NCBI RefSeq assembly: GCF_029968015.1
Contig: NZ_JASCIS010000005.1
Span: forward strand, 124,001-188,000
Length of the DNA stretch: 64,000 nt
Source: Streptomyces luteolus
GTDB taxonomy: Bacteria > Actinomycetota > Actinomycetes > Streptomycetales > Streptomycetaceae
Reading direction: 5' to 3'
Shown: in pieces, positions 2,958 to 5,454 of the stretch
Position numbering within the stretch: position 1 is the first letter of the stretch
How the letters are laid out: each line of letters starts with the position of its first letter
Made by a program: the position numbers and the translations under genes
The notes under the pieces: model-generated
Told to the model about the DNA's origin: nothing
What the model saw: only the letters and a program-made list of their open reading frames with translations
Databases searched by the model: none

Positions 2958-2987
2958 TTGAAGGGCAACCAAATGGTTGCCTATAAT
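2958..2987 (+). promoter_or_regulatory. Promoter with a palindromic operator filling its spacer (ArsR-SRPBCC)
   Basis: TTGAAG at 2958-2963 and TATAAT at 2982-2987 are separated by 18 bp. Those 18 bp (2964-2981) are a perfect palindrome, GGCAACCAAATGGTTGCC. A dimer bound there would block RNA polymerase, which suggests autorepression by the ArsR-type protein just downstream. The expected transcription start is near 2993-2995, so the mRNA is probably leaderless. Confidence 0.85.
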
Positions 2988-2994
2988 GGCGGAC

Positions 2995-3810
2995 GTGACG
3001 ATGGACGACGTGTTCCGCGCACTCGCCGATCCGAGTCGCCGGGCACTGCTCGACCGGCTGAACGACCGCAACGGGCAGAGCCTGCGAGAGCTCGGCGAGG
3101 GGCTCGGCATGAGCCGGCAGGCGGTCAGCAAACACCTGGCGGTCCTGGAGTCGGCCCGGCTGATATCGACCGTCCGGCGCGGTCGCGAAAAGTTGCACTA
3201 CCTCAACCCGGTCCCGATCCAGGAGATCGCCGACCGCTGGATCGGACAGTACGAACGGGGCCGCCTCGCGAGCCTCTCCCGCCTCAAGCGGAATTTGGAA
3301 GGAAGCACCATGAGCAAGCCCGAGTTCGTCTACGTGACGTACATCCAGACCACCCCGGAGAAGCTCTACGAGGCTCTCACCGACTGGGAGTTCATCAAGG
3401 AGTACATGGAGGGCTGGGGTCCGCAGTCCACCTGGGAGGTCGGCTCGACCGTCAAGTGGAAGATGGGCCCCGACGGTGAGGCGGAGGAGCTCGGCCAGCG
3501 GGTCCTGGAGGCCGTCCCCGGCAGGCGCCTCGCGTACACCTGGCACACGCTGCAGCCCATGCACCGCGAAATGCTCGGCATCACCTCGGACGAGGAGTGG
3601 GAGCGGGCCGTCAAGGAGCGGTCCAAGGTCACCTTCGACATCGAGCCCGCCGAGGAGGCCTCGGCCGGGGTGAAGTTGACGATCACGCACGACGGCTTCG
3701 ACAGCCCCGACAGCAAGATGCTGGAGAGCGTCAGCGGCGGCTGGATCATGATCCTCTCGGCCCTGAAGACCTTCCTGGAGGGCGGCCGCCGCCTCGCGGA
3801 CCAGCGCTGA
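2995..3810 (+). CDS. ArsR-family regulator fused to an SRPBCC (AHSA1-like) domain
   Basis: The N-terminal ~95 residues are an ArsR winged helix (VFRALADPSRRALLDRL, then SLRELGEGLGMSRQAVSKHL). The remainder, from about 3310, is an SRPBCC/AHSA1 domain (VYVTYIQTTPEKLYEALTDW and a terminal GGWIMILSALKTFLEGG). Upstream in-frame ATG and TTG codons at 2986 and 2977 lie inside the promoter, so GTG 2995 or ATG 3001 is the likely start of a leaderless transcript. ArsR and SRPBCC genes are often adjacent; here they are in one frame. A ribosome site (GGAAGGA, ~3296-3302) and an ATG at 3310 could also yield the SRPBCC part alone. The ligand is unknown. Confidence 0.88.
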   Translation: MTMDDVFRALADPSRRALLDRLNDRNGQSLRELGEGLGMSRQAVSKHLAVLESARLISTVRRGREKLHYLNPVPIQEIADRWIGQYERGRLASLSRLKRNLEGSTMSKPEFVYVTYIQTTPEKLYEALTDWEFIKEYMEGWGPQSTWEVGSTVKWKMGPDGEAEELGQRVLEAVPGRRLAYTWHTLQPMHREMLGITSDEEWERAVKERSKVTFDIEPAEEASAGVKLTITHDGFDSPDSKMLESVSGGWIMILSALKTFLEGGRRLADQR

Positions 3811-3814
3811 CGCG

Positions 3815-3981
3815 CAGGGCCCGTCTCCCCGATCTTTGCGGGTCCGCGACGCCTGGCACGCCCTCTCGCCGCACGCCCGAATCACCCAAGTACGTCCAGT
3901 ACGAGGGCGATCCGGGCGCACGCCGAGAGCACGCACCAGACGCCGCGGCCTGATCCGCAAACATCGGGGAGACGGGCCCTG
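3815..3981. repeat. 167-bp nested inverted-repeat element between convergent genes
   Basis: Outer arms 3815-3841 and 3955-3981 are 27 bp each with one mismatch. Inner arms 3848-3887 and 3905-3944 are 40 bp each with 11 differences, nine of which would be G-U pairs in minus-strand RNA. The 17-nt loop contains a further short GTAC/GTAC pairing. The element sits between the ends of the ArsR-SRPBCC and M20 genes, where it could terminate transcription in both directions. Its size and perfect outer arms also fit a dispersed miniature element. No target-site duplication is visible. Confidence 0.8.
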
Positions 3982-4086
3982 GTTCGAGGAGGGGCGGGGA
4001 AGTCCGGGCCTCAACGGACCTCCCCGCCCGCTCCGCGGTCCGCCGGCCCATGGTGGCCGGGAACCGGTCTGTGGTGGCCGCCCTGT

Positions 4087-5454
4087 TCAGCGGCGGCGGG
4101 CGGTCGCGTACTCGTGTAGGAACAGGGCCTCCACGTGCGCCATGTGCTCGATCTCCGCGGGGTCGACGCTCTCGTCGGGCGCGTGGATCCGGCAGCGGGG
4201 CTCCGCCACGCCCATGAGGACGACCTCGGCGCGCGGGAACGCGTCGGCGAGCACCGTGCACAGCGGGATCGAGCCGCCCTGGCCGAGATACACGAGCGGC
4301 CGTCCGTACACCTGGCGCATCGCGGAGCCGAGTGCCGCGTAGGCGGGCCCGTCGGTCGCGGCGCGGAACGGGGCGGCGGCGCCCTGCGGCTCTACGGTGA
4401 CCTTGGCGCCCCAGGGCGCGGCTTCGGTCAGCTGCTCGGTGAGCATGGCGAGCGCGGCGGCCGGATCGACGCCCTGCGGGATGCGGAGGCTGACGCGGGC
4501 CCGGGCGCGCGCGGGGACGGTCGCGGACGAACCGGCGGCGGCCGAACCGGTCGCGGGCGGGCAGTCGATGCCGAGGACGGTGACGGCGGGCCGGGCCCAC
4601 AGCCGGTCGGCGACGGTTCCGGTCCCGGTCAGGCGTACGCCGTCGAGGACGCCCGCGTCGGTGCGGAACCGGGCCTCTTCGTAGCCGACGCCGTCCCAAC
4701 TGCCTTCGTAGTCAAGGCCGTTGACTCGGGTTGCGCCGGTCTCCGGGTCGTGCAGCGTGGCCAGCATCTGGATCAGCGCGGCGAGCGCGTCCGGTGCGGG
4801 CCCGCCGAACATGCCCGAGTCCACCTCGCCCCGCAGCGTGGCGACGGTGACGAGCAGGTCGGCGAGGCCGCGCAGCGTGATGGTCGCGGCGCCGGTGCCG
4901 GCCTCGGCGTTGCCGGTGTCGCAGAGGAGGAGCGCGTTGGCGAGGAACTGCTCCGGATGTTCCTCGACGTAGGCCTCAAGCCCGCCCGTGCCCTGCTCCT
5001 CGGAGCCTGCCGCGACGAACTTCAGGCCGACGGGGATCTCCTCGCCGAGTGCCCGCAGCGCGGTCAGGTGCATCACGATGCTGCCCTTGCCGTCCGCGGC
5101 GCCCCGCCCGTACCAGCGACCGTCGCGCTCGGTCAGCGTGAACGGCGGCGAGGTCCAGGCGGTGTCGTCGAGCGGGGCCCGCACGTCGTAGTGGCAGTGG
5201 AGGAGCACCGTGGGGGCGCCGCTCGGGGCCGGGTGGTGGCCGAGGACGGCGTGGCTGCCGTCGGGAGTCTCGGCGAGGTGCACGTCCCGGAGCCCGACCT
5301 CCGTGAAGGCGTCGGCGACCCACTGGGCTGCCTTGCGGCACTCGCGCGGCGGGTACTGGCGGGCGTCGGCGACCGAGGGGATGGCGACGAGCTCCGCGAG
5401 GTCCCGCCGGGCGCGCGGCATCAACGCGGATACCCTTCCGCCCAGTTCGGTCAT
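4087..5454 (-). CDS. M20-family dipeptidase
   Basis: A 455-residue metallopeptidase of the M20 (PepV/CNDP-like) family, expected to cleave dipeptides or short peptides with two metal ions in the cytosol. Visible motifs are HCHYD (His88, Asp90), GRGAADGKG (bridging Asp121) and GSEEQGTGG (catalytic Glu near 152-153). A late His is in CRIHAPDESV. Full length for the family and no signal peptide. It is transcribed alone, convergent to the ArsR-SRPBCC gene across the hairpin element. Substrate cannot be told from sequence. Confidence 0.92.
   Translation of the reverse strand: MTELGGRVSALMPRARRDLAELVAIPSVADARQYPPRECRKAAQWVADAFTEVGLRDVHLAETPDGSHAVLGHHPAPSGAPTVLLHCHYDVRAPLDDTAWTSPPFTLTERDGRWYGRGAADGKGSIVMHLTALRALGEEIPVGLKFVAAGSEEQGTGGLEAYVEEHPEQFLANALLLCDTGNAEAGTGAATITLRGLADLLVTVATLRGEVDSGMFGGPAPDALAALIQMLATLHDPETGATRVNGLDYEGSWDGVGYEEARFRTDAGVLDGVRLTGTGTVADRLWARPAVTVLGIDCPPATGSAAAGSSATVPARARARVSLRIPQGVDPAAALAMLTEQLTEAAPWGAKVTVEPQGAAAPFRAATDGPAYAALGSAMRQVYGRPLVYLGQGGSIPLCTVLADAFPRAEVVLMGVAEPRCRIHAPDESVDPAEIEHMAHVEALFLHEYATARRR

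Follow-up and report, generated by a model that had tools for sequence, protein, structure and literature searches.

An apparently mobile foldback element of Streptomyces whose arm differences favour pairing of the minus strand

The Correia/NEMIS elements of Neisseria are described in the cited passages as non-autonomous inverted-repeat elements of 100-200 bp that have TA at their ends and occur in many copies; long stem-loop transcripts processed by RNase III are reported for them, and they carry promoters (PMC10969869, PMC2229807). In similar summaries, RUP of Streptococcus pneumoniae is about 107 bp long, with IS630-Spn1-like ends, a TA target and a predicted RNA structure (PMC3049150, PMC2229807), and the Rickettsia palindromic elements (RPE) are palindromic repeats that can sit in frame within protein genes (PMC2229807).

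The element analyzed here is a 167-bp hairpin at positions 3815-3981 of a 64,000-nucleotide stretch of Streptomyces luteolus DNA (contig NZ_JASCIS010000005.1), called the window below. By the descriptions cited, it is like Correia/NEMIS a small TA-target inverted-repeat element with many copies. Unlike Correia/NEMIS as described, it is one whole foldback with a conserved strand polarity, and a search of window positions 3700-4150 for the sigma-70 consensus found no promoter-like site; its core is also common to the ends of two transposase families. It shares with RUP, again by description, IS630-like ends (in one subfamily), a TA target and a predicted RNA structure, whereas RUP is given as AT-rich, shorter and tied to one transposase family. 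Like RPE it has in-frame copies, and it differs from RPE as characterized there in that its copies lie mostly outside called genes, in its CTAG edges and IS ends, and in its different bacterial hosts. Near-identical terminal inverted repeats and CTAG edges, in two subfamilies, are shared with Streptomyces insertion sequences of the IS5 and IS630 families, which unlike the element carry a transposase. A literature search, with coverage mostly of non-subscription journals, returned no published description that we recognised as this family. The features of the window copy and its surroundings are as follows; A1 is an alignment of 48 cores.

2977-3810, plus strand: upstream reading frame with HTH/ArsR-type and AHSA1 domain, its stop 4 bases before the element
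3815-3981, minus strand (the strand with the conserved fold): whole foldback element (MITE)
3815-3844, plus strand: left outer arm, starting CAGGGCCCGTCTCCCC; most intact relatives have (C)TAGGG..
3842-3950, minus strand: 109-nt core (alignment A1, covariance model R1), common to elements with different ends
3934-3935 with 3857-3858, minus strand: conserved tandem G-U site (A1 columns 16-17/93-94; UG in 46/48, GU in 48/48)
3923 with 3869, minus strand: conserved mismatch, G-G in the window copy (A1 columns 28/82; unpaired in 45/48)
3919-3920 with 3872-3873, minus strand: conserved tandem G-U site (A1 columns 31-32/78-79; UG in 43/48, GU in 45/48)
3906-3917, minus strand: 5' side of the covarying stem (A1 columns 34-45)
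3886-3905, plus strand: tip CCAAGTACGTCCAGTACGAG, on the minus strand CUCGUACUGGACGUACUUGG with an apical GGA; it sets the element orientation
3875-3886, minus strand: 3' side of the covarying stem (A1 columns 65-76)
3952-3981, minus strand: right outer arm (inverted copy), with the end ..GGGCCCTG
4087-5454, minus strand: M20-family peptidase gene, convergent

The outer arms (3815-3844 and 3952-3981) are 93% complementary across 30 nt, in agreement with the original prediction, which had called them nearly perfect. Minus-strand RNA of 3805-3991 was predicted to fold at -155.0 kcal/mol as a single long helix, an energy reached by none of 200 shuffles (mean -90.6, sd 4.8, z -13.4). The plus-strand RNA of the window copy gave -120.7 kcal/mol (z -10.4), and folding as single-stranded DNA had the same polarity as RNA (-85.2 for minus vs -64.4 for plus). 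It had also been proposed that 9 of 11 differences between the inner arms are G-U pairs on the minus strand. Our count is identical, nine G-U pairs and two G-G mismatches, and leaves out a small internal loop adjoining the tip and one G-A mismatch further out.

The window copy sits between convergent genes and is overlapped by a reading frame (3836-4342) without a Pfam match. Rfam gave three matches in 3000-5000, all under the gathering score (best MIR918, 54.2 bits vs 268). A role linked to the two neighbour genes gained no support, as copies occur in many contexts. The interval from the element to the peptidase gene contains a further GC-rich inverted repeat (3992-4029), a plausible terminator that has no T tract.

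Further copies, which the original prediction had proposed to look for, are numerous in the same genome (8.46 Mb, 113 contigs), where 92 local matches were detected, including opposite-strand matches of the same copies. From this genome 40 places were extracted: 30 have outer ends of the window type or similar to it, and in the other 10 the core lies between different ends. The tip was held in 28 of the 40, a script count that includes one chance match and misses L003; the rest were end-only, truncated or interrupted. The tip pattern had 30 sites at no more than one mismatch there, and the reversed-pattern control had none. An exact tip was present in 23 of 121 genomes of the genus, four genomes having one control match each. 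With a 601-nt query that contains the element, 37 of 41 relatives gave a match, gene-only matches being counted too, and several of the cores read from these have variant tips. The tip scan of named genomes returned at least 118 stretches. The 80 titled matches listed were from Streptomyces, Kitasatospora and Actinokineospora, apart from one Rhodoferax MAG; plasmid matches added Embleya. The Rhodoferax match (L151) has no paired stem and was set aside as chance, and 14 tip matches on viral contigs, with the core absent from the flanks printed, were regarded as chance or coding. Class-wide, the covariance model matched 10 of 148 genomes, eight of them in the window's genus and two outside it with marginal scores (E 2.5e-4 and 4.7e-4). 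Loci L046-L263 were fetched mostly by tip patterns, so that the invariance of their tips, including those in A1, holds by construction.

The general layout consists of outer inverted repeats with CTAG edges, a core of about 109 nt and the tip. Ends were found for 140 of 193 tip copies by a script that demanded C[T/C][A/G]G at the left and left the right edge free; 84 of the 140 read CTAG...CTAG. Many of the remaining edges are CCAG or CTGG, the main forms to which CTAG decays, sometimes at both ends of one element. Mismatch repair at CTAG, or copying between the arms, may lie behind this decay. The window copy has the edges CA...TG, and by comparison with its relatives its left edge is decayed. 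Lengths, measured with one edge base per side on copies free of the small hairpin described next, were 169 in 15 of 18 copies with CTAGTGCC-type ends. Among 62 copies with CTAGG-type ends, 19 measured 179, 17 measured 181 and 12 measured 169. Four Actinokineospora elements with other ends and another stem sequence were 163-168 long, and 11 of 15 distant elements fell within 163-169, the others being 154, 175, 175 and 179.

A second, much smaller hairpin (CTCCCCCAGCCTYCGGCCGGG.., about 31-45 nt) has 68 sites in the window's genome at no more than one mismatch, with L010, L011, L012, L032 and L298-L301 among the loci concerned. It is inserted at GCAC/GCACG positions of the core, in the loop of other small hairpins, forming a hairpin in a hairpin, and within an unrelated repeat between ..CTCGTCCTCAAA and ACGGGCTGGATTT. 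The small hairpin looks mobile and hairpin-seeking.

Terminal ends shared with an autonomous element were found for two subfamilies, CTAGTGCCGC.. (IS630) and CTAGGGCCTGTCCGG.. (IS5). The end of the IS630 subfamily is CTAGTGCCGC(A/G)TCAGGCAACGTTCGCC. Two plasmid records (L292, L293) have identical 26-bp ends, one base different from the commonest element end, that span 1566 bp around an IS630 transposase; one of the two transposases matched DDE_3 and NF033545. Both of these IS630 elements also hold a small passenger gene of the glyoxalase superfamily between the transposase and an end. The end of the IS5 subfamily is CTAGGGCCTGTCCGGCGGATC ('IS5-like' as a class label in the end survey denotes a loose pattern). 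In S. clavifer, CTAGGGCCTGTCCGGCGGAT.. ends, differing at 1 of 20 positions, lie 957 bp apart around an annotated IS5 transposase. A second IS5 transposase adjoins a CTAGGGCGTGTTGCGAAAGT end, and its other end was not found. No tip within 3 mismatches was present inside the IS5 element of L449 or the IS630 elements of L292 and L293; the single tip-like match of L292 lies outside its IS630 element. By these sequence comparisons, one core is carried on the ends of two unrelated transposase families, IS5 and IS630. A comparison of L003 and the window copy, both from the same genome, gave 124 of 132 identical positions inside and 13 of 18 in the outermost bases. Their right ends differ correspondingly, as if both ends had been exchanged together.

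A partner insertion sequence of the window type would have to match the end CTAGGGCCCGTCTCCCCGATC. Among the plasmids searched, no insertion sequence had the window copy's own ends (CTAGGGCCCGTCTCCCC..). In its own genome, seven extra end-like places were read and none was bracketed as an IS end, and the PF13340 (IS5-type) loci had no bracketing inverted repeats, in both cases by blastn at E 0.1, a setting under which ends shorter than about 20 bp may escape detection. Different ends were read at the only PF13358 (IS630-type) gene of this genome. A PF13358 survey of 101 genomes covered the best 30 loci and this one, and a candidate inverted repeat was detected in 19 of the 31; three of the 19 start with CTAG and none has the window ends. 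A transposase was not found beside the end in H131, H46 and H42; H153 belongs to a record that is nearly unannotated.

Insertion could be recognized at several related loci. In genome G002 a copy (L140) lies in frame in a trpE-like gene with anthranilate synthase component I domains, and the ortholog in the window's genome is empty; the insertion has 192 bp between the two edges, equal to 64 codons, without stops. Other in-frame, stop-free copies (L247, L067) were observed, one in a polyketide synthase frame and one in a TPR-protein frame. L216 and L156 form a second filled/empty pair that is clean on the left side only, and the alignments of L050 and L059 are less clean as empty-site pairs. 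Between a CATAGGAT box and gatC (PF02686), core relatives with other ends occupy 2 of 18 loci, in two species; one further locus retains a short remnant, and 15 are empty. The set is the 18 loci with a gene start found by script, of 30 fetched from 61 genomes. These sequences upstream of gatC (L358, L378, L375) would be transcribed in the plus sense. At the window locus, the two relatives read, G023 and G019, are without the element, but their downstream neighbours differ as well, which leaves no exact empty site. The element is thus short and multi-copy, has no transposase gene, ends in terminal inverted repeats with CTAG edges and, for relatives only, has orthologous empty sites. The mobile hairpin element that had been proposed from the window copy is well founded on these features, and the family is very likely mobile and moved in trans.

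The pairing of the core was analyzed in A1, which is gap-free and was built from 63 representatives of 117 intact cores. These cores came from 214 tip matches after exclusion of 60 that were partial, 22 without ungapped pairing, 9 at edges, 4 duplicates and 2 with N. A filter asked for at least 36 pairable positions out of 42, wobble of either strand being allowed. It was passed by 48 representatives, of which 47 (all but L154) form the 48 rows together with the window copy. On the minus strand 94.5% of the cells are paired, vs 84.4% in shuffles, and 26 of 50 pairs have changed on both sides, vs 14.3 in shuffles. The covariation score is 0.309, vs 0.116 in shuffles, none of 500 reaching it, and slid versions gave at most 0.075. 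With pair column 14/96 omitted (16 of its 48 cells unpaired), the cells comprise 474 minus G-U, 5 minus A-C and 110 of other types, and 95.1% are paired on the minus strand and 75.2% on the plus strand. Compensatory changes, the absence of which had been named as a refutation of the original prediction, are therefore abundant across the family.

The same polarity appears in sets assembled without a pairing filter. Stem positions 1-11 of 82 distinct tip-anchored cores contain, read on the plus strand, 123 A-C vs 9 G-T, and positions 3-11 exchange Watson-Crick pairs freely (position 3: GC 29, AT 26, CG 24). The minus strand folds better in all 176 of 176 distinct cores, a set that omits the Rhodoferax match, with a mean gain of 25.9 kcal/mol and 8.0 G-U pairs per core on minus vs 0.5 on plus. 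Among fifteen distant elements, eight of which were recovered through sequence similarity rather than through their tips, 14 agree in polarity. The exception, L350, is one of the eight and has a tied tip that makes its orientation arbitrary; the orienting tips of L295, L344 and L352 have 6-7 mismatches.

Changes were also counted by parsimony on 148 distinct 61-mers, likewise without a pairing filter. Over all 22 columns, parts of which are misaligned where the small hairpin is inserted, single changes led from Watson-Crick pairs to minus G-U 77 times vs 14 times to minus A-C (p 1e-11) and 78 times to other mismatches. Two-sided Watson-Crick replacements numbered 62, and by two changes G-U was reached 13 times and A-C 4 times. 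Columns 12-21, chosen as the variable stem after the table was seen, gave 53 minus wobbles, 8 minus clashes (p 3e-9), 31 other mismatches and 49 two-sided replacements. Private single changes in close clusters, a small sample of 44 classed by base change alone and overlapping the parsimony data, were distributed as 8 minus wobbles, 11 minus clashes and 25 other, both contrasts with columns 12-21 giving Fisher p 2e-4. Among them, G>A and C>T read on the plus strand were balanced at 6 each. The private changes, within the limits of this small and overlapping sample, do not support a strand-biased mutation source. For any difference between the arms, A-C on one strand means G-T on the other; an orientation-blind process therefore gives no polarity, and strand-neutral arm copying cannot produce it. 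Traces of arm-to-arm conversion were seen in L144, compared with L143 from the same genome (G103), and in L111, several wobbles apparently having become Watson-Crick pairs in a single tract. The persistence of wobbles despite arm copying suggests that wobbles are useful or that perfect palindromes are lost. These patterns make it quite probable that pairing on the minus strand is under selection.

The genes around 130 copies were called with a home-made gene caller, checked only against the window, and fell into 44 convergent, 35 plus-plus, 22 divergent, 16 minus-minus, 10 inside a called gene and 3 undetermined contexts. Plus-plus exceeds minus-minus (35 vs 16, p 0.011). Inside genes there are 8 plus and 2 minus cases, one of the latter being a chance match, which brings the plus-sense total to 43 vs 18 (p 0.002); p becomes 0.0006 when the two inside-minus cases (L151, chance; L236, low score) are omitted. 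Open frames are equal on both strands (1.91 each, 184 elements), so that frame alone does not explain the plus-sense lean. Of 79 left-hand genes on the plus strand, 16 have as their stop the TAG of the element's own left edge, 15 times within CTAG and once within TTAG, and insertion at such a site therefore leaves the stop codon intact. The plus-sense lean speaks for the minus hairpin being disfavoured in host mRNAs, and makes it doubtful that a minus RNA is produced within them. The suggestion that the asymmetry is a sign of minus-strand RNA is upheld as far as the family-wide conserved minus pairing goes; the lack of a promoter consensus and the contexts leaning to the plus sense do not speak for it.

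On balance we favour a non-autonomous foldback element with conserved minus-strand pairing, in which a minus-strand RNA aids persistence or spread, and regard this whole explanation as probable. Movement itself we infer: since the subfamily ends match those of IS630 and IS5 elements, transposases acting in trans presumably move the element. That minus-strand pairing is conserved follows from the covariation of the arms and the bias of their differences to minus G-U. The conserved molecule would be an RNA hairpin of the minus strand, of use to the element in persisting or spreading. G-U in place of Watson-Crick pairs would keep the RNA folded, would keep the DNA from becoming a perfect, unstable palindrome and would make the hairpin weaker in host mRNAs of plus sense, the setting in which copies occur more often. 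For the G-U positions that hardly vary, conservation as a DNA motif is another possible cause, GCAC being present in both arms in direct orientation. For the more particular claim that the selected molecule is RNA and not single-stranded DNA, the sequences lend moderate odds, held at that level by the promoter that was not found and by DNA folding of the same polarity.

Other explanations account for parts of these data. If the selected molecule were the minus strand as single-stranded DNA, in replication, conjugation or a transposition intermediate or as the site of a structure-specific protein, G-T pairs would be tolerated. The folding polarity of DNA, the promoter not seen and the near-constant length of a mobile element between genera, which a DNA-handling step could demand, all agree with this. 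IS5 and IS630 transposases, however, act on double-stranded DNA substrates and are not known to need an obligatory single strand, and we consider the explanation rather unlikely. Selection might instead be confined to the plus strand and disfavour a strong hairpin in host mRNAs, while strand-neutral copying of the kind seen in L144 and L111 keeps the arms alike. The excess of plus-sense contexts fits this. But transversion mismatches would weaken a plus hairpin equally, the 53 wobbles and 31 other changes of columns 12-21 differ from the private 8 and 25 (Fisher 2e-4; over all 22 columns, some misaligned, the numbers are 77 and 78), and the plus hairpin is still very stable at -120.7; selection of this kind alone appears unlikely.

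A strand bias in mutation, such as deamination of cytosines when the minus strand is exposed, would make the asymmetry without selection on pairing, and many of the fixed differences could indeed be C to T on the minus strand. It would have to be reconciled with the balance of G>A and C>T among the private changes (44 in all, a small sample), the 62 two-sided Watson-Crick replacements by parsimony over all columns, a covariation above every shuffle and the recurrence of the polarity in elements with a different stem sequence, and is therefore very improbable. Positions directly after stops, the element TAG serving as stop in 16 of 79 left plus genes, and the place of the window copy between convergent genes would suit a host regulatory RNA, a terminator or an mRNA-end stabiliser for neighbour-gene transcripts. 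Such a function is hard to expect of a sequence as patchy between species as this one (exact tip in 23/121 genomes); empty sites and varied insertion contexts fit a mobile element, and the choice of CTAG as target could alone account for the stop-codon positions. A host role of this sort is thus improbable. A further reading, which we offer tentatively, is that the core is a selfish structured module of RNA or single-stranded DNA, a strand-polar hairpin with near-fixed length and a recurring tip, that has repeatedly swapped its ends, both sides in concert, and whose minus molecule is needed for propagation or survival. It would thus have spread via IS5 and IS630 transposases across several Actinomycetes families.

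Bacterial MITEs are usually viewed as transposon remnants with incidental hairpins. In the present family, dozens of divergent sequences with compensated and polar stem changes separate selection on a folded strand from mere palindromy, a built-in test that most bacterial MITEs lack. If the minus-strand RNA hairpin that we favour is confirmed, the family would represent a bacterial transposable element that has a conserved non-coding RNA and swaps ends from one transposase family to another, in a genus renowned for its antibiotics, and this would explain why some MITEs remain hairpins.
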